From: Candidatus Chloroploca sp. Khr17
Lineage (GTDB): Bacteria; Chloroflexota; Chloroflexia; Chloroflexales; Chloroflexaceae
Direction: 5' to 3'
Length of the DNA: 60,422 nt
NCBI RefSeq assembly: GCF_004138165.1
Contig: NZ_RYFF01000035.1
Location: 1 to 60,422 of the forward strand
Part shown: positions 5,807 to 58,661 of the stretch, in pieces
Position numbering within the stretch: the stretch's first letter is position 1
Layout: each line of letters begins with the position of its first letter
Notes under the pieces: generated by a model
Database searches by the model: none
The model's input: the letters and a program-made list of their open reading frames with translations, nothing else
What the model was told of the DNA's origin: nothing
Program-made: the position numbers and the translations under genes

Positions 5807-6604
5807 ATGTTGTCGCGACGTAAAGAGCGTATGCCAGTCGATGGTGCCGAATATGAACTGATGTTGAGTACGGCTGATGGCAAAGGTATGCTCGCCTTCT
5901 CTGGAGAAGTAGTGACGAGTATGCGGCGCATGTTGACGACGCTGATGTATCAGTCCACGCTTCCCCGTAGCATTGCCTGTATCTCGGCGCTGCAACAAGA
6001 AGGTGTGAGCTATCTTACCCTCGCCATGGCGACAACGCTCGCCCATGATGTCGAGGCTCGCGTTTGTGCCGTAGAGGTAAACTGGTGGCATCCCGGAATG
6101 CATCAGTATCTTGCGGGGCAACCGCCAGCCCTTCGTACGGGGGGCAAACGCAAGCAGCACAAAGCTGCCGCCGCAATGGCGCCGCTGCCGGGCCCTGACG
6201 ATCCGGGCCTCGGGGCGGTCGTGCAGGGTACGCTGGCGCTCGAAAAGGCCCTTGTGCCGACCGACCGCGCTAATCTGTGGCTTCTCCCGGCTGGTTTTGT
6301 GGCCCCCGATGTACGTTCCGCTATTGCCCGTAGTAGTGAACTCAAAGCGGTGTTTGCCTCGCTGGCCGAACAGTTCGATTATCTGTTCATTGATGTGCCG
6401 GCTGTGGCGACGAGTAGTGATACGCTCGCGTTGACCTCCCTGGCCGAGGCGGCCTGTGTGGTGGTGCGCCATGGCGTGACCCCGATCAATACGGTCAAGC
6501 GTGCCCTTGATGAGGTTAAGCATATGCCCGTGCTCGGTGTGGTCTTGAATCAAGTCAATCTGTCCACCCCTGATTGGATTTTGAGCCTCTTGCCGCAGGA
6601 GTAG
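5807..6604 (+). CDS. CpsD/CapB-like P-loop protein with degenerate Walker A
   Basis: A 265-residue protein that aligns along its length with the cytoplasmic BY-kinase/ParA-like partner of Wzz proteins. At the Walker A position it reads SALQQEGVSY (residues 60-69), so the expected GK[ST] lysine is a valine. The Walker A' region reads VEVNWWHP instead of an IDAD-type motif. The Walker B segment FDYLFIDVP (190-198) is kept. No tyrosine-rich C-terminal tail is present. It probably does not bind or hydrolyse ATP in the normal way and may be a regulatory pseudokinase of polysaccharide export. The start is supported by an AAGGGGAG sequence and the operon position. Confidence 0.75.
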   Translation: MLSRRKERMPVDGAEYELMLSTADGKGMLAFSGEVVTSMRRMLTTLMYQSTLPRSIACISALQQEGVSYLTLAMATTLAHDVEARVCAVEVNWWHPGMHQYLAGQPPALRTGGKRKQHKAAAAMAPLPGPDDPGLGAVVQGTLALEKALVPTDRANLWLLPAGFVAPDVRSAIARSSELKAVFASLAEQFDYLFIDVPAVATSSDTLALTSLAEAACVVVRHGVTPINTVKRALDEVKHMPVLGVVLNQVNLSTPDWILSLLPQE

Positions 6605-6608
6605 ATGC

Positions 6609-6743
6609 ATGACGCAGTTTATTGTCTTGATGCTCATTTTTAGTGTGCTCGGCATTCTTTTACGCAAGAAGCCCTTTATCTATACCCAACTTGTGCTCGC
6701 GTTGATCATTGTGCTCTTTATGGTTCGTTTATATTTTTTTTAA
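6609..6743 (+). CDS. Small 44-residue membrane peptide of the EPS operon
   Basis: A short open frame starting ATG at 6609 and ending TAA at 6741-6743. It encodes two closely spaced hydrophobic stretches separated by LLRKKPF, i.e. a possible helical-hairpin membrane peptide. It lies 4 bp after the CpsD-like stop, and its TAA shares its last A with the ATG of the next gene, so translational coupling is likely. No family recognised. The tight packing and continuous hydrophobic reading support it being real; an upstream ATG at 6605 is out of frame. Confidence 0.6.
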   Translation: MTQFIVLMLIFSVLGILLRKKPFIYTQLVLALIIVLFMVRLYFF

Positions 6744-8341
6744 TGCGTATGACTCAGCATAATCCATCTGTTGCGTTGCCGACGACGATGCCGTTGATGC
6801 AGCGTATTTCGACCCTTGGACAACAACTCGCCTATGCGCGACGCAAGCATGTGCTTTTGTCGCTGGCAGGGCTTGGCTTTAGTCTGCTGGTTGCCCTGGC
6901 TTTCTTTCTCCTTGGGCCTGGGCCGGCGGCCCTGGCCTGGCTTATCTTTATGATCGTCGTGGGCACCATTTTCTATAACCCGCGCTATGGAATCTATCTG
7001 ATCGTTGGCTTTACGGTGGCCGCAGATGGGGTGCTGCTGCCGTGGTACCCGATGAGTAAAAATCTCTCGAGTCCCGAATCGATCATGTATCTTGGTCGGA
7101 TTGCCAGCTTTAGCCCCCTCGAGATCTTGCTCGCGTTGCTGATGCTCAGCTGGTTTCTGCGTTTGCTCGCAACCCGGCGTTTTACTGTACCCTTGACCCC
7201 GATCCTCTTCTGGACGCTGATCTTTGTCGCGTTTGTTGCTCTGGGCTTTGCCTATGGTATCTTTCGTAGTGGTGATACGACGATTGCGCTCTGGTCGATT
7301 CGCTCGATGTTTTACCTGCCCATCATGATCCTGATGGTGAGTCAGTATATCGAAACCCGCGAACATGTCCGTGTCCTCTTCTGGAGTGTGCTGTTTGGTC
7401 TGACTTTTAATGCGCTCTATGGCTTCTATTTTGTCGCGATACAACTCAATTGGGCTTATGCTGAGTTGAATGAAATTGCCGAGCATCCCTTATCGATTCA
7501 GTGGAATACGATCTTTTTGTTGGCGGCGATGTTGATTTTTCTGGCCCGTGCCGAGCCAGTGACCCGCCCGATGCTCTGGTATACGCTCTTGCTCTTGCCG
7601 TTCATGCTGGTTGCGTATGTTGGCAATCAACGTCGTGCCGGCTATCTTGCCCTGGCTGTTGCGCTCATCGTCTTTGCGCTGTTGCTCTTCTGGTTTCATC
7701 GTCGCATCTTTCTGATCTTTGTCTTGCTTCCTGGCTTGCTCTTTGGCCTCTATCTCGTTGCGTTCTGGAATGTTCAGTCGGCACCAGGTGCTGTGGCGCA
7801 GATGATCCGGGCCGAGGTTGATCCTCCCCCCGAAACTCGCGACTCTTCGTCAAACCTTTATCGCGATCTTGAGAATGCGAATCTCTTGTATACGATCCGT
7901 CAGGCTCCGTTGCTGGGGATCGGTTTTGGCCATGCGTTCTATAAGCCTTTTCCTATGGCTGATATTAGCTTTTTTATCTGGGCTGATTATATTCCCCATA
8001 ATTCGATCCTCTGGATCTGGGTGCAGACGGGCCTGGGCGGTTTTTTTGCCATGATGATGTTGATTGGCGTCTCGCTTGCGCTGGGGGTACGCCGTTTATT
8101 TCAAGCACCACCTGGTGAGATGCGTGCCTTTGCTTTTGTTGCCTTTAGTTATGTGCTGATGCATGTGCTCTTTACCTACCTTGATATAGCCTGGCAGCCT
8201 CAGAGTATGGTCTATCTGGGGGCAATGCTCGGCTTGATCAGTGTGTTTGATCGCATTGTTGCGCATCCCGTTGTGGTGCCACCGCAACGCTGGCCTTGGC
8301 AACCGGTGCCTCTGCCTCCCCCTGGCCTCCAGCAACTTTGA
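6743..8341 (+). CDS. O-antigen polymerase/ligase-like membrane protein (Wzy/WaaL family)
   Basis: A 532-residue polytopic protein with about 11-12 membrane segments and a large extracytoplasmic loop in the C-terminal half (about 350-410, containing a NLYRDLENANLLYTIRQAPLLGIGFGHAF-like stretch). The G(I/F)GFG-H motif and layout are those of the Wzy_C/O-antigen ligase family. It is expected to polymerise or transfer undecaprenyl-linked glycans outside the membrane. Its ATG overlaps the stop of the small membrane peptide gene by one base. Confidence 0.82.
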   Translation: MRMTQHNPSVALPTTMPLMQRISTLGQQLAYARRKHVLLSLAGLGFSLLVALAFFLLGPGPAALAWLIFMIVVGTIFYNPRYGIYLIVGFTVAADGVLLPWYPMSKNLSSPESIMYLGRIASFSPLEILLALLMLSWFLRLLATRRFTVPLTPILFWTLIFVAFVALGFAYGIFRSGDTTIALWSIRSMFYLPIMILMVSQYIETREHVRVLFWSVLFGLTFNALYGFYFVAIQLNWAYAELNEIAEHPLSIQWNTIFLLAAMLIFLARAEPVTRPMLWYTLLLLPFMLVAYVGNQRRAGYLALAVALIVFALLLFWFHRRIFLIFVLLPGLLFGLYLVAFWNVQSAPGAVAQMIRAEVDPPPETRDSSSNLYRDLENANLLYTIRQAPLLGIGFGHAFYKPFPMADISFFIWADYIPHNSILWIWVQTGLGGFFAMMMLIGVSLALGVRRLFQAPPGEMRAFAFVAFSYVLMHVLFTYLDIAWQPQSMVYLGAMLGLISVFDRIVAHPVVVPPQRWPWQPVPLPPPGLQQL

Positions 8342-32282: not shown

Positions 32283-33461
32283 CTACGCACGGGCAAAGAC
32301 GAGGGTGGCCCCGTCATCAATGGTGATCGTCAGGGTCTCGCCCTCGATCACATAACTCGTGGCCCGGCTGAACTGCTCGAGGAAGGCTGTTTCCTGAGCC
32401 ATAAGCGCATCCTCGCACGCCATCATGGTGCTGCCGGCCTGGGTAATGCTGAGCGCACCATCGGCAACGGTGTAACCGGCAAAGTAGCGGTTGCAGCCAG
32501 CCGAACCTGCGACCCGGCCCTCATCGTCAAACTCGGCGGAGATTGGTGTACCCTCGCTCAGTGGCGCTGCGCCGTTGAGCTCAGTCAGCACCCAACTCGT
32601 GCCGGCCAGGGCATTGCTTGCCTGCGCAAAGACAAGGGTGGCCCCGTCATCAATGGTGATCGTCAGCGTCGCGCCGTCGATTACATAGCTCGTCGCTCGG
32701 CTCAGTTGATCGAGGAAGGCCTGCTCTTGCGCCATGACTGCTTCCTCACATGCCATCCGTGTGCTACCGGCCTGCGAAATGCTGAGTGTGCCATCAGCAA
32801 CGGTGTAGTCGGCAAAATAGCGGTTGCAACCAGCCGAACCTGTGATGCTGCCCTCGGTATCAAACTCGGCCGAAATTGGCGCACTCTCGCTCAGCGGCGC
32901 GGCGCCGTTGATGGCGGTGAGGATCCAGCTCGTGCCGGTCAGGTCATTGCTTGAGGTCATTTCTTCCTCCGCACGCTCAAAGACGAGGGTAGTCCCGTCA
33001 TCAATGGTGATCGTCAGGGTGTCGCCGTCGATCGCATAGCTCGTAGCGCGGCTGAATTGATCCAGGAAGGCCATTTCCTGCGCCATAAGCGCATCCTCAC
33101 ACGCCATCATGGTGCTGCCGGCCTGGGTAATGCTGAGCGTGCCATCGGCAATGGTGTAACCGGCAAAGTAGCGGTTGCAGCCAGCCGACCCCGCGACGCT
33201 TCCCTCGGCATCAAACTCGGCGGAGATGGGCGTGCCCTCGCTCAGCGGCGCGGCACCGTTGAGCGCGGTAAGCACCCAACTCGTTCCGGCCAGGGCATCA
33301 CTCGTCTCTGGCATCGTGGCTTCTTCGGTGACTGGTGTCTCCTGCTCGGTCGTCGCCGGTGTCGGCTCGGTTGTTGAGCCGGTGCTCGGTGCGGTGCCAC
33401 AGGCAGCCAGGACAAGCATGCCCATCAGCAGCGCCGAAAGGATCGTCATTCGCAACTTCAT
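32283..33461 (-). CDS. Lipoprotein with three tandem META (HslJ-like) domains
   Basis: A 392-residue lipoprotein (signal peptide ending LVLAAC) with a Thr/Glu/Pro-rich linker. Three near-identical ~105-110-residue META domains follow. Each begins [DAL][LA][TA]GTSW[VI]LT, has GSAGCNRYFA and QAGSTxMAC, and ends LTITIDDG[TA]TLVF. The paired cysteines in each domain could form a disulfide. Family members (HslJ, META) are linked to stress or novobiocin resistance, but biochemical function is unclear. The high DNA identity between copies implies recent internal duplication or gene conversion. ATG 33461 follows GAGGAG. Confidence 0.88.
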   Translation of the reverse strand: MKLRMTILSALLMGMLVLAACGTAPSTGSTTEPTPATTEQETPVTEEATMPETSDALAGTSWVLTALNGAAPLSEGTPISAEFDAEGSVAGSAGCNRYFAGYTIADGTLSITQAGSTMMACEDALMAQEMAFLDQFSRATSYAIDGDTLTITIDDGTTLVFERAEEEMTSSNDLTGTSWILTAINGAAPLSESAPISAEFDTEGSITGSAGCNRYFADYTVADGTLSISQAGSTRMACEEAVMAQEQAFLDQLSRATSYVIDGATLTITIDDGATLVFAQASNALAGTSWVLTELNGAAPLSEGTPISAEFDDEGRVAGSAGCNRYFAGYTVADGALSITQAGSTMMACEDALMAQETAFLEQFSRATSYVIEGETLTITIDDGATLVFARA

Positions 33462-52623: not shown

Positions 52624-55047
52624 ATGAGCCAGCGCTCTCCTGCTCTGTTTGTTTCGTTCATCGTGCTCGCTGTCGTCTGTGCTTCGTTTGCCCTGCTGCC
52701 TGCCGCTGCGCAGCAGCAGGGTCCTCAGACAAACCTCGCGGCGCTTAGCCTCACGACCGTCACTGATTGGGAGGCTGGTGTTGCTGAGGGGGCGTTGGTG
52801 ACGAATAATGCTGGCGGTGAGGTGCGCCTTGCCGATGAGCAGCGCGAGGGTTCCTTTGTCTCGCCGTCTTTTGTCACCGACTTTGCCTTCAATGCTGTCG
52901 GGGCAAGCTGGCAGGCTGATGTGCCCGAGGGTACCCGCCTGGCCCTTGAAGTGCGTGTGCGTGATAGTGAGGGTGACGATAATGTTGAGGCAGGGTGGGG
53001 CGCATGGCAGCCCCTCAGCGCGATTGATGCCGCGACAGCTGCGTCTGATGATGAGGGTACGTTTGTGACCCCTGCGGTGCTCGCTGTGCCAGCTACCAGC
53101 CAGGCGCTTCAGGTGCGGGCGAGCTTTACAAGCGAAGTGGAACGTGCTTCAGCGGTGCTCGAAGCCATCACGCTTACCTACTTGAGTACGGCTCCACCTG
53201 AGCCTATTTTTGCCACGGGGTTGCCCCGCCGTCCGCTGCTCGCAGGAGGCAAGACCCTGACCCCACGGCCTGCGGTTATTCCACGCGCCGATTGGCGTGG
53301 CCGAGCGGAAGCAGCGCAGCCCCTGCGACGTACACCACGTGGCCTGGTATTGCATCAGATCGATGCCGAAGTGAGGGCCGGGACAAGCCTTGACATGGTG
53401 CGTGCGCTGGCAAGCTATCAACTGGATGTGCTCGGGTGGGAAGACCTGAGCTACCACTACCTGCTTGATCCCGAAGGCAATCTCTTTGAGGGGCGCCTCG
53501 GTGGGCCAACGTCATTTGTGCCCCGGATGGCCGCCGGGGGTGACGCTGTCCATATTGGTGTGCTTGTTCCGCGAGGGGGGGCACTCTCTCCGACGGCACA
53601 GGGTGTGTTGATCAACCTGATGGCCTGGCTTGGTGAAGCCTATGGCATCGATCCGATGGGGACACATCGCGTGGCCGGTGATGCTGCGGCGACTGATCGT
53701 CCTAATATCGTTGGGTTCGATACACTCATTAATGCTGCGTCCGAGCGTACGCCTGAGCTCGATGCGTTGGTGCCGCAACTGCGCCTCTTGACTGACCAAT
53801 CTACTGTGCGAGCACGCTGGTATTTTGCCGAGGGCAATGTAGCCGAGTATAGTCAACGCTTGGCCCTCTTTAACCCGACTGAGGCCGAAACTGAAGCGAC
53901 AGTGACGCTTGTGCGCCCTGGCGATACGCCGGTGACCAGCATTGTGCGTATTCCAGCCAATGCCCGGGCCGACCTGACCGTGAACACCTTGCTGGATAAT
54001 GCGCTGGCGTTGCCGGCGATTGTCGAGTCGAGTGCGCCCATTCTGGTTGAACGGTCGATGAGCCTGACGACCGATATTGATGGAGGGCCGGGTATTACCG
54101 AACTCTCACGGGTCTGGTATTTTGCGGAAGGTTCAACTGAAGGCACCCAGCGCACCTTTTTGTTGCTCTTCAACCCCAATCCGGTCAATGTGCAGGCAAC
54201 CCTGATCTATATGCAGCGTGATGGGGCCACCTTTGCGCAGGATGTGCAGATTGCGGCCCAATCGCGTCTGGTTATTGCTGTCAACGACATTACCCTGCCT
54301 GATGGCAGTCTCCCGCTCGTTGGGAAGAATTTCGGTGTACAGATTGTTGCCAGTCAGCCGCTGGCCGCCGAACGTACGATGCGGTTTGGCGAGAATGGCT
54401 CGGGATTGCATACGGGGCGTGGGATCGCGACGCTGGCACGGCGCTGGTATTTTGCCGAAGGCACAACCCAGAGCGATTTCCAGATGCACCTGCTCGTGCT
54501 CAACCCCAACCTCCAACCAGCCAATGTCACGGCAACCTTTATGGGGCCTGAAGGCGAGGCTGCGGTACGCCAGTTTGCGGTGCCACCACGCACGCAACTT
54601 GCCATCAATGCCAATGCGATCATCCCAGATCTTGGCGTCAGTTCCATGGTTACCGCAGACCGCCCTGTCGCTGTAGAACGCTCGCTGCGCTTCAATAACG
54701 ATGCGGCTGGTACGATTGGTACCGGGGCCACGGCTCCAGCCCTGCGCTGGGCGTTTGTTGATGGGCGCACCAGCGACGTCACCTACTATCTCTGCGTCAG
54801 CAACCCCGACCGTTTGCCGACCACAGTGACGGTTGATTTCAGCTTTGGTGATGGGGCCATTGGTTCACAGAGCATTGTGGTGCCGGCTGGCGCACGTTAC
54901 ACGATGGCTGTCCACGAAATCTACCCCGACGAAAACATTGTCTCGGCCATCGTGCAGAGCACGCGCCCGATCATTGCTGAGCGTTCGCTCTTCCCCGGTG
55001 GTGGCCTCCGTGGTGGGTCAACGAATTTGGGCATTCCGATGCCGTGA
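52624..55047 (+). CDS. Secreted PGRP/amidase-like protein with RWYFAEG (DUF5719-like) repeats
   Basis: An 807-residue protein with a signal peptide ending near ALLPAAAQQQ. A beta-rich N-terminal domain (about 35-195) comes first. A PGRP-like domain (about 215-375) has PRADWRGRAEAAQPLRR, LVLHQIDAE, LSYHYLLDPEGNLFEGR, and THRVAGDAAATDRPN. The late Cys of true amidases (xCPG) is Arg here (TDRP), and the first His is followed by Gln. Four repeats of about 100 residues follow, each opening [RW][WY]YFAEG or RWAFVDG, with L.L.NP and an ending A[ER]RS. The domain may bind peptidoglycan without cutting it. Confidence 0.8.
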   Translation: MSQRSPALFVSFIVLAVVCASFALLPAAAQQQGPQTNLAALSLTTVTDWEAGVAEGALVTNNAGGEVRLADEQREGSFVSPSFVTDFAFNAVGASWQADVPEGTRLALEVRVRDSEGDDNVEAGWGAWQPLSAIDAATAASDDEGTFVTPAVLAVPATSQALQVRASFTSEVERASAVLEAITLTYLSTAPPEPIFATGLPRRPLLAGGKTLTPRPAVIPRADWRGRAEAAQPLRRTPRGLVLHQIDAEVRAGTSLDMVRALASYQLDVLGWEDLSYHYLLDPEGNLFEGRLGGPTSFVPRMAAGGDAVHIGVLVPRGGALSPTAQGVLINLMAWLGEAYGIDPMGTHRVAGDAAATDRPNIVGFDTLINAASERTPELDALVPQLRLLTDQSTVRARWYFAEGNVAEYSQRLALFNPTEAETEATVTLVRPGDTPVTSIVRIPANARADLTVNTLLDNALALPAIVESSAPILVERSMSLTTDIDGGPGITELSRVWYFAEGSTEGTQRTFLLLFNPNPVNVQATLIYMQRDGATFAQDVQIAAQSRLVIAVNDITLPDGSLPLVGKNFGVQIVASQPLAAERTMRFGENGSGLHTGRGIATLARRWYFAEGTTQSDFQMHLLVLNPNLQPANVTATFMGPEGEAAVRQFAVPPRTQLAINANAIIPDLGVSSMVTADRPVAVERSLRFNNDAAGTIGTGATAPALRWAFVDGRTSDVTYYLCVSNPDRLPTTVTVDFSFGDGAIGSQSIVVPAGARYTMAVHEIYPDENIVSAIVQSTRPIIAERSLFPGGGLRGGSTNLGIPMP

Positions 55048-55050
55048 AAA

Positions 55051-55111
55051 GAAGAATTCCTGTGACGAACAAAGCCAGTTTCGCTGGCTTTGTTCGTCAC
55101 AGGAATTCTTC
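55051..55111. terminator. 28-bp perfect palindrome, shared-core variant
   Basis: Arms 55051-55078 and 55084-55111 pair perfectly around a 5-nt loop (TTTCG). The inner part, AAAGCCAG/CTGGCTTT, is a variant of the shared core. It is the longest perfect stem in the window and sits between convergent genes. Confidence 0.88.
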
Positions 55112-55126
55112 GTCAATGCCGTGCTC

Positions 55127-56362
55127 CTACCGGGTGATGGCTGGCAGATAGACTCGCGATAAGAGGGTTCCGCTCTTGACGATCTGGATGGTCAGGGTCT
55201 CTTCGCTCAGGCAATACTGGGGTGACGTACTAAAGATGCGCACGGTGGCGGTATGTATGCCGACTGGGAGAGCGTGTGGATCAACCAGGAGGGTCAGCGC
55301 TTGTCCCGTTGTACCAGTCGCGGGGGTCACCTGCAACCAGGGTGTTTCGGCAAGATTGGTCACCTGAGCCTGCCATGAGAGGCTGGTTTCCGTTGAACTT
55401 TCGACGATAACCTGATACGTAGTGGTGGGCGACTGATCATCGGCGAGCATTGCCACGCTCGTTTCTGATAGCTCAACTGTGGGAACCTGGAAGAGATCGG
55501 CGAGGGTCTGGTTGGCTTGGCCAACAAAGGCATTATTGTAGCGTACCACCCCACTCCAGACATCTTTATCAAGCCACATCGCCATCGCGGTATGCTCGGG
55601 ATGCGCCAAGCGCTCGACACTTACCGGGTTGAAATCGAAGTAAGCCTCATACGCTTCGCCAAGGGTCTTGCCGGCAAAGAGTGAGCGTAGGTACTGTTGG
55701 AAGGCATCACCAAACCAGTTGGCATAGTAGCCAGCGGCCCCGATGTCAAAGAAAGGATCGGCGTACTGGGCCACCCGTCGTTGGGCCTCTTCGCTGCTGA
55801 TCGAGCCGTCGAGACTCGAACTGCCTGCGGTGAAGCAGCCATAGAGCATCACAATGGCATTGGGGGCGAGTTGAAGCTGTTGCCGAAGATCGTCGGGTAG
55901 CACAAACTGATCCTTCAGCGCCAGGCCACCCACATCCGGTGAAGGCATATCACTCAAAAAGACCCCGTGGCCCCGGTAGAGCAGAAAATGGGCACCTTGC
56001 GCAGCCGCCTTGATCGCGTCCCAATTGGTATCAGGGGTATAAAACCGCATCACCGTCACGCCATTTGCTTCGAGCTCCTGAGCGGCCAGTTCCATATTGC
56101 CGCGTTCTTTGTTTGTCCAGCTACCTTCGTCGCCATCAATGGGCCCGACGATCAAGACGGCCTTGAGGGGGGGCAAAGCCTGGGCCGGGTTTGATGTTGG
56201 GGCAACCCTGGGTTCAACGTGGACCGCTAACGGGGCGACTGGCGGATGCAAAGGATGTGCAGGTGTTGTGATTTGAGCATAGGTCGGCACGGGCGCGCGG
56301 GCCAACAAAAGGAAACACAGGAGCGAACAGCATAGATATGATGCAAGATAACGGGTTTTCAT
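55127..56362 (-). CDS. Secreted caspase/CHAT-like cysteine peptidase with BACON-like domain
   Basis: A 411-residue secreted protein with a signal peptide (residues 1 to about 29, cut near TYAQ). A Rossmann-like N-terminal part (65-130) precedes a caspase-fold dyad: H132 in LLYRGHGVF and C176 in AIVMLYGCFTAG. Both are set at the ends of hydrophobic strands, as in clan CD/CHAT proteins. Residues about 300-395 form a beta-sandwich of BACON type (WLQVTPATGTTGQALTLLVDPHALPVGIHTATVRI). It ends with VYLPAITR, which I recall as a recurring tail of secreted Chloroflexota proteins. Most CHAT proteases are cytoplasmic, so secretion is unusual. Proteolytic activity is inferred. Confidence 0.72.
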   Translation of the reverse strand: MKTRYLASYLCCSLLCFLLLARAPVPTYAQITTPAHPLHPPVAPLAVHVEPRVAPTSNPAQALPPLKAVLIVGPIDGDEGSWTNKERGNMELAAQELEANGVTVMRFYTPDTNWDAIKAAAQGAHFLLYRGHGVFLSDMPSPDVGGLALKDQFVLPDDLRQQLQLAPNAIVMLYGCFTAGSSSLDGSISSEEAQRRVAQYADPFFDIGAAGYYANWFGDAFQQYLRSLFAGKTLGEAYEAYFDFNPVSVERLAHPEHTAMAMWLDKDVWSGVVRYNNAFVGQANQTLADLFQVPTVELSETSVAMLADDQSPTTTYQVIVESSTETSLSWQAQVTNLAETPWLQVTPATGTTGQALTLLVDPHALPVGIHTATVRIFSTSPQYCLSEETLTIQIVKSGTLLSRVYLPAITR

Positions 56363-58320: not shown

Positions 58321-58661
58321 TCTTGCACGACATCACAGCACCGCTCTTGCACGACATCACAGCACCGCTCTTGCACGACATTACAGCACCGCTCTTGCAC
58401 GACATCACAGCACCGCTCTTGCACGACATTACAGCACCGCTCTTGCACGACATTACAGCACCGCTCTTGCACGACATTACAGCACCGCTCTTGCACGACA
58501 TCACAGCACCGCTCTTGCACGACATCACAGTACCGCTCTTGCACGACATTACAGCACCGCTCTTGCACGACATCACAGTACCGCTCTTGCACGACATTAC
58601 AGCACCGCTCTTGCACGACATTACAGCACCGCTCTTGCACGACATTACAGTACCGCTCTTG
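58321..58661. repeat. 14-copy tandem array of a 24-bp unit
   Basis: Fourteen full units TCTTGCACGACATYACAG plus YACCGC (24 bp), then a 5-bp partial copy. Only two positions vary: position 14 (C/T) and position 19 (C/T, mostly C). Units 1, 2, 4 and 8 are C,C; 3, 5, 6, 7, 10, 12 and 13 are T,C; 9 and 11 are C,T; 14 is T,T. All differences are C/T transitions. The unit is open in all three plus frames and two of three minus frames, so long frames there are artefacts. It lies between nadK and the DapA-family gene. Confidence 0.95.

Follow-up and report, generated by a model that had tools for sequence, protein, structure and literature searches.

Proteases of the CHAT stock are best known for sensing and defence inside the cell. 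Gingipains are exported clan CD enzymes, and PorU, of the C25 family, is the sortase-like processing enzyme of type IX secretion. Clan CD families C11 and C25 have been reviewed (PMC4357240), and clostripain, also of clan CD, is described as secreted in PMC11296011. A 2012 survey of prokaryotic caspase homologues mentions N-terminal helices that are possibly signal peptides and had already raised extracellular or fratricidal roles for these proteins (PMC3501461), and pseudo-orthocaspases are documented (PMC6426788). Of a secreted CHAT protein we found no report in the open-access literature searched, a scope outside which most subscription papers fall; PMC10907252 concerns other systems.

The locus described here lies in a window of 60,422 nucleotides, the whole stretch of DNA that was analysed, from the 6.38-Mb genome of Candidatus Chloroploca sp. 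Khr17 (G000), a filamentous phototroph. An open reading frame with H132 and C176 is present at 55127-56362, as an earlier note on this DNA had said, and runs on the minus strand. Its 411-residue product has, in this order, a signal-peptide-like start, a proline-rich linker, a caspase-fold domain, a BACON-like Ig domain and a YLP tail. The features of the locus, in window coordinates, are the following.

55127..56362, minus strand: whole gene of an apparently exported CHAT-like protein of 411 aa (open reading frame, Chloroploca orthologues and dN/dS)
56276..56362, minus strand: predicted signal peptide, residues 1-29 (hydrophobic core of 2.94 after two basic residues; probable cleavage at TYA-Q)
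56183..56275, minus strand: proline-rich disordered linker or propeptide, residues 30-60 (pLDDT <50 at residues 25-59)
55490..56182, minus strand: predicted caspase/hemoglobinase-fold domain, residues 61-291 (pLDDT 95.4, pTM 0.93; structure matches; CHAT profile match)
55967..55969, minus strand: codon of H132, the predicted catalytic His, in YRGHG (His in 45/46 members; aligned to the His of CHAT, C14 and C25)
55835..55837, minus strand: codon of C176, the predicted catalytic Cys, in LYGCFTAG (Cys in 46/46 members and in L036; aligned to the Cys of CHAT and C14)
55163..55489, minus strand: BACON-like/Ig-like beta-sandwich, residues 292-400 (PF19190 at 22.4 bits, cut-off 25; ASH/PapD-like and other Ig-type structure matches)
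55130..55150, minus strand: C-terminal tail YLPAITR, YLP-box-like (similar tail in Chloroflexota members without BACON; the tail class tracks signal-peptide-like starts in the Khr17 genome)
55051..55111, no strand: long hairpin, likely a bidirectional terminator (MFE -54.5 kcal/mol, z -12.7; conserved in three Chloroploca genomes)

The reading frame is a real gene, because intact copies exist in Ca. Chloroploca mongolica, at 93% identity, and in Ca. Chloroploca asiatica, at 88%, and because its dN/dS, calculated according to Nei-Gojobori between the Khr17 gene and these two orthologues, is low over the whole gene (0.12 and 0.23, respectively). Its most constrained part is the caspase-fold domain, with values of 0.058 against mongolica and 0.072 against asiatica. 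The BACON-like residues 292-400 gave 0.126 and 0.207, and residues 1-60 the highest values of the gene (0.236 and 0.578). Between the gene and its convergent neighbour stands the hairpin, its stem about 29 bp long; all three Chloroploca genomes have it, and the three other genomes searched lack it.

The AlphaFold2 model of the whole protein, built with 23 related sequences, has a mean pLDDT of 86.7, and the high values listed above for the caspase-fold domain were obtained when the domain was modelled alone (238 residues from residue 60). The model predicts a caspase/hemoglobinase alpha/beta fold, the fold of clan CD, in which the hydrophobic strand 124-130 would precede YRGHG with H132 and the hydrophobic strand 165-174 would precede the GC with C176, as is the arrangement in this clan. 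A structure search with the domain alone by VIA-align 2, whose best 50 matches listed span Z 10.7 to 14.3, placed SAVED-CHAT first among the solved structures (8tl0, Z 14.3, 175 residues, 3.4 A), followed among others by DdvA, which has a CHAT-like domain (8rw5, Z 13.6, 167 residues, 4.2 A), gingipain RgpB (4ief, Z 13.0, 185 residues, 4.0 A), MALT1 (7ak1, Z 11.5, 180 residues, 4.4 A), caspase-6 (3s8e, Z 11.5, 173 residues, 3.9 A) and a plant legumain-type chain (5h0i, Z 11.3, 170 residues, 3.0 A). Foldseek returned 14 chains for the domain at E<=0.001, namely five of SAVED-CHAT, seven whose titles name Craspase, TPR-CHAT or Csx29 complexes, the chain 7x8a (titled only 'bacterial protein complex') and flavodoxin 5veg; the TM-scores are modest (0.45 for SAVED-CHAT, query-normalised), and a secreted C11 chain, 6n9j, stands at rank 23.

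Family models do not report this domain. For the Khr17 protein Pfam gave BACON_2 only, whether E was limited to 1 or to 10, and no match to CHAT, C14, C25 or C11; NCBIfam gave no match (0 families at E up to 10), PADLOC matched 0 defence families at E up to 10, PHROGs gave a single match outside the caspase-fold domain (E 0.045 at residues 301-332), and a sequence search of the PDB returned nothing for the domain and one chance match (E 1.4). When 19 members of the family were scanned against Pfam, clan CD families, the CHAT model included, were absent among the 25 of 28 families listed, and a second family scan of members, with 25 of 30 families listed, likewise named none of clan CD; both scans come without match positions. 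A weak NCBIfam match inside the domain of L031, the homologue carried by Anaerolinea thermolimosa, to a terpene cyclase of encapsulin cargo type (E 0.064; 12.6 bits where the cut-off is 400) was taken as chance.

Profile comparison reaches further. Alignments for CHAT, C14 and C25 were assembled from 24 proteins picked from the 30 PF12770 loci listed in related genomes, 22 picked from the 30 PF00656 loci listed, also in related genomes, and 11 picked from 17 PF01364 loci; near copies, fragments, broken frames and weak matches were dropped by hand. With hhalign, whose percentages and E-values here are single-comparison values for these three profiles, the profile of 23 family members matched CHAT at 96.3% over 142 columns (97.7% in global mode), C14 at 27% (9.5% in global mode) and C25 at 15.6%. 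YRGHG falls on the His-Gly of CHAT and LYGC on its Cys, and the stretch between them and the region after the Cys are aligned as well; His and Cys are also aligned to the C14 dyad, and His to the C25 His. As controls, the reversed CHAT profile gave 0.11% and the reversed C14 profile 0.9%, and the best of 60 column-permuted CHAT profiles reached 1.2%; the best permuted value for C14 was 1.9%. Compared with one another, CHAT and C14 score equally well (96.1%; CHAT against C25 gave 59%), and the 96.3% is therefore read as kinship at the level of the clan only, which is why we name the family CHAT-like and do not file it as a CHAT member. Judged by these profiles, it belongs to clan CD with CHAT as the nearest of the neighbours tested, a placement that does not imply membership of the CHAT subfamily.

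A scan of genome contigs yielded 23 loci, which are found in Chloroflexota, two Bacteroidota, two Spirochaetota and one Actinomycetota MAG (Ca. Oleimmundimicrobium), and a profile search of 400 Chloroflexota genomes detected the domain in 42, the best 30 loci being read. With the single protein as query, matches occurred in 14 of 61 genomes, six in the domain (G000, G001, G002, G012, G015 and G025) and the other eight in the BACON-like part. The maximum-likelihood tree of 46 members splits on a starred branch into 19 core and 27 outer members; the Bacteroidota and Spirochaetota rows cluster (100/99) inside the core, the inner order of which is mostly unresolved. Transfer of the family between phyla is likely. 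What follows the domain differs from member to member. Among the 19 members scanned, eight have a BACON-like part (BACON_2 at E<=10), two a LamG part (assigned by eye to L030 and L032), one a copper amine oxidase N domain (by eye, L034), one a FlgD-like Ig domain and one, L029 of the Cytophagales, thioredoxin together with PA14. The thioredoxin fusion fits a thiol enzyme located outside the cytoplasm and suggests a thiol that has to remain reduced there.

H132 lies within FLLYRGHG and C176 within IVMLYGCFTAG. The two columns were read by profile search, as a first motif regex had missed 7 of 26 loci, and among the 46 distinct members from four phyla (loci showing both motif columns, duplicates removed by hand) the Cys is kept in all and the His in 45. 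L036 has the Cys, and its His region reads N, which places it outside the 46. The sole exception, with Arg at the His position, is a Chloroflexaceae homologue read as L005 and again as L026, where 6001-7155 encodes RGRG in place of RGHG and retains the Cys; this homologue is likely a pseudo-enzyme.

We consider it probable that the Khr17 protein is an exported cysteine endopeptidase from an unnamed CHAT-like branch of clan CD which acts on extracellular or surface proteins, and we infer its export, catalysis, substrate, surface retention and role from the features set out here; what the analysis shows directly is the gene and its constraint, the family of homologues, the predicted fold, the conservation of the dyad and the order of the domains. 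The best of its competitors, which we nevertheless regard as unlikely, is a pseudo-enzyme that retains the clan CD fold for binding or as a scaffold, without catalysis, while the BACON-like domain and the YLP tail do the work at the surface. Strong conservation indeed reaches well past the dyad, one homologue has lost its His, and pseudo-orthocaspases offer a precedent (PMC6426788). However, near-invariance of His and Cys across four phyla speaks against it, as does the distribution of constraint, since a decaying active site would give the reverse of what is seen, that is, 0.06-0.07 in the caspase-fold domain against 0.13-0.21 in the BACON-like part.

The BACON-like assignment of the C-terminal part rests on a BACON_2 match with an E-value of 1.1e-4 that stays below the Pfam threshold, and on a modelled beta-sandwich with block pLDDT values of 81-96. 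Residues 292-400 match Ig-like domains of ASH/PapD type and a part of a Bacteroides GH5 enzyme, in keeping with the sub-threshold BACON_2 match, and the gingipain structure 4ief spans both domains (aligned 61-393, Z 12.7, 249 residues, rmsd 10.3 A).

Export is suggested by the start of the protein, in which the n-region MKTR is followed by a stretch with an 11-residue Kyte-Doolittle mean of 2.94 and by TYA before Q30; by our home-made hydrophobicity rules this is a plausible signal peptide. A hydrophobic, basic-led start was seen in 16 of 16 core members checked, with starts picked by eye and without threshold or background; the contig end truncates L022 and L024, and the check covered the core subfamily. 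What the earlier note had read from the letters, a start like that of a signal peptide, a caspase/CHAT-like protein with a His-Cys dyad and a BACON-like C-terminus, stands, as the predicted fold did not turn out to lack the caspase-like sheet on which that reading depended and the dyad proved to be lost in one homologue only.

At the other end, the protein closes with YLPAITR, which puts Tyr-Leu-Pro at its extreme C-terminus. A tail of the type [YFHM][LMI]P, a class defined after seeing them, is found in every one of the 15 Chloroflexota core members whose end is visible (the window protein, L020-L028, L031, L033, L035, L036 and L047), three of which have no BACON (L027, L028 and L033), and in none of five members from other phyla, the end of L030 being unsure owing to a run of N. 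A search with the C-terminal part led to 12 relatives that carry BACON, of which 10 end in YLP and a further 4-6 residues. In an early scan of sampled stretches the tail was seen in only 7 of 625 open reading frames, five of the seven with a lenient signal-peptide call. Across the Khr17 genome the codon pattern for Y-L-P-x-x-x-R, which requires T as second base of codon four and so excludes the protein's own tail with its Ala in fourth place, occurs 61 times and is directly followed by TAA or TGA in 23, whereas the same pattern read backwards occurs 48 times and never with a stop. Sixteen of the 23 stop-linked tails end long open reading frames, two are cut by contig ends and five end frames of <=88 codons; 15 of the 16 long frames (e.g. 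L213-L226) pass the home-made signal-peptide rule, as compared to 32 of 137 background frames. At least one tail-pattern match is present in 75 of 201 Chloroflexota genomes, most of all in Khr17 (23, the next having 10); the genomes of several relatives have matches and no control matches, but for G033 and several genomes of family f3 the control is equal or higher, which, like the low count in the early scan, weakens the argument from the tail. The idea of the tail as a new signal was dropped, and we do not claim it as such, because the NCBIfam models NF050076 and NF053834, which do not report the Khr17 protein's own tail, already bear the name 'YLP-box putative sorting motif'. By its sequence YLPAITR resembles this described but uncharacterised putative sorting signal.

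Taken as an exported endopeptidase, the protein would work as follows. A Sec-type signal peptide would carry it out of the cytoplasm, and beyond a flexible proline-rich segment the compact caspase-fold domain would use the thiol of C176, activated by H132, to attack peptide bonds. The BACON/Ig-like domain probably binds surface, glycan or substrate, and the YLP tail probably sorts the protein to the cell surface or retains it there. Its likely targets would be proteins outside the cell or at its surface, which it would process or break down in the setting of the filament and the mat.

Was such a location to be expected? The Khr17 genome encodes two C25 proteins, which end in IFLPVVGR and LFLPLVNR, and one C11 protein (L213, 124-3609), which is YLP-tailed, has a PD40 repeat and passes the signal-peptide rule. 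Since clan CD proteins tailed in this way occur repeatedly in this genome, an exported location is not surprising in itself; clostripain and the gingipains are known exported enzymes of the clan. The earlier note had presented secretion as unusual for these proteases, which was overstated, and had thought of cell-wall turnover or competition as a role, which is so far unsupported, no immunity-like or wall-binding partner having been recognised by eye in the neighbourhoods read. Its observation thus holds and its interpretation holds in part, that is, for the start, the fold, the dyad and the BACON-like end.

The neighbourhoods themselves bear on a further reading, in which the protein would be an exported effector drawn from the defence stock of CHAT proteases and directed at neighbouring cells or kin, in competition or extracellular cell death. 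This we regard as improbable. Its nearest relatives by fold and profile are indeed CHAT proteases, the solved ones of which come from defence systems, the Khr17 genome has 13 CHAT matches, and extracellular fratricidal action has been suggested for prokaryotic caspase homologues (PMC3501461). Against this, PADLOC gave no match, selection is purifying and not diversifying, and the gene lies downstream of an SRPBCC-type gene and a NAD kinase gene on the same strand and faces a convergent gene. By eye, no conserved operon or partner was seen at L023, L025, L028-L035, L037, L047 and L002-L006, and no immunity-like, wall-binding or proteolysis-linked neighbour was recognised in the neighbourhoods read; in the loci read, neighbours are common to close pairs only (L031/L035, L030/L032, L005/L006 and the Chloroploca set).

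Some further observations concern the surroundings. The convergent neighbour (52624-55047) matches amidase-2 weakly, at 15.8 bits under a cut-off of 26, and DUF5719 above the threshold. A 24-bp tandem repeat of 14.2 copies (96% match) at 58321-58661 of the window separates the NAD kinase gene from one that we take to be dihydrodipicolinate-synthase-like. Another tandem repeat, with a unit of 351 bp, 3.0 copies and 79% match, is found at 32293-33298. Near the Cyclobacteriaceae homologue in L037, 11845-12705 encodes what by eye is a signal-peptide-like start followed by an apparent C14 caspase start.

It is a long shot that the same fold serves other hydrolase or ligase chemistry, for instance peptide ligation as in some legumains, since legumain and plant peptide-ligase chains, with Z about 11 in the best 50 matches listed, are indeed among the closest structures but are no closer than CHAT, caspases or MALT1, and no sequence feature examined points to ligation. 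The idea of a sortase-like processing enzyme for YLP-box proteins, after the manner of PorU, was prompted by the fact that the genome richest in tail-pattern matches of the 201 sampled encodes a clan CD protein with apparent export, and we reject it as largely refuted by failed co-occurrence, for G006, G020, G042 and G037 have several tail-pattern matches without the family and G068, G080 and G089 have the domain family and 0 tail-pattern matches.

With the protein read as an exported CHAT-like endopeptidase, clan CD gains a family that, as far as we found, has no Pfam or NCBIfam model, and a CHAT-like domain of catalytic type that seems made for work outside the cytoplasm. Should the protein be active, the CHAT fold would be separable from its intracellular sensing role, and there would be a small stand-alone enzyme with which to probe the substrate choice of CHAT proteases. 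The Khr17 protein also offers an easy case in which to test the YLP-type sorting tail of Chloroflexota, so far uncharacterised. A wider picture, which we offer as a doubtful possibility, is that of a distinct, phylum-crossing family of exported CHAT-type proteases, a branch of the CHAT stock at work outside the cell. Its members would be surface-sorted effectors in bacteria that are filamentous or form mats, and their targeting domains (BACON, LamG, thioredoxin with PA14, copper-amine-oxidase N and FlgD-like Ig) would be interchangeable.

The family extends the well-known clan CD, in which exported enzymes are not new as such. With clostripain (C11, PF03415), an exported bacterial clan CD protease, it would share this general character, and the Khr17 genome has its own YLP-tailed C11 protein, but the C11 model does not match the protein studied here. 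The gingipains (C25, PF01364) are alike in that an Ig-like domain directly follows the clan CD fold, whereas the profile match is low (15.6%), the C25 model is silent and no C25 prodomain was recognised in the Khr17 protein. Orthocaspases and metacaspases (C14, PF00656) have the fold and the dyad in common with it, with His and Cys aligned, but the profile match reaches 27% only and the C14 model gives no match. The tail is that of YLP-box proteins (NF050076, NF053834) in so far as Tyr-Leu-Pro stands at the C-terminus of an apparently exported Chloroflexota protein, even though the NCBIfam models miss it. Different from the CHAT proteases (PF12770), as known from SAVED-CHAT and from TPR-CHAT/Csx29 of Craspase, the Khr17 protein stands alone, begins like a secreted protein, has no sensor domain that could be seen and escapes the Pfam CHAT model; like them, however, it has the predicted fold, and its His-Gly and Cys motifs stand in register with theirs.
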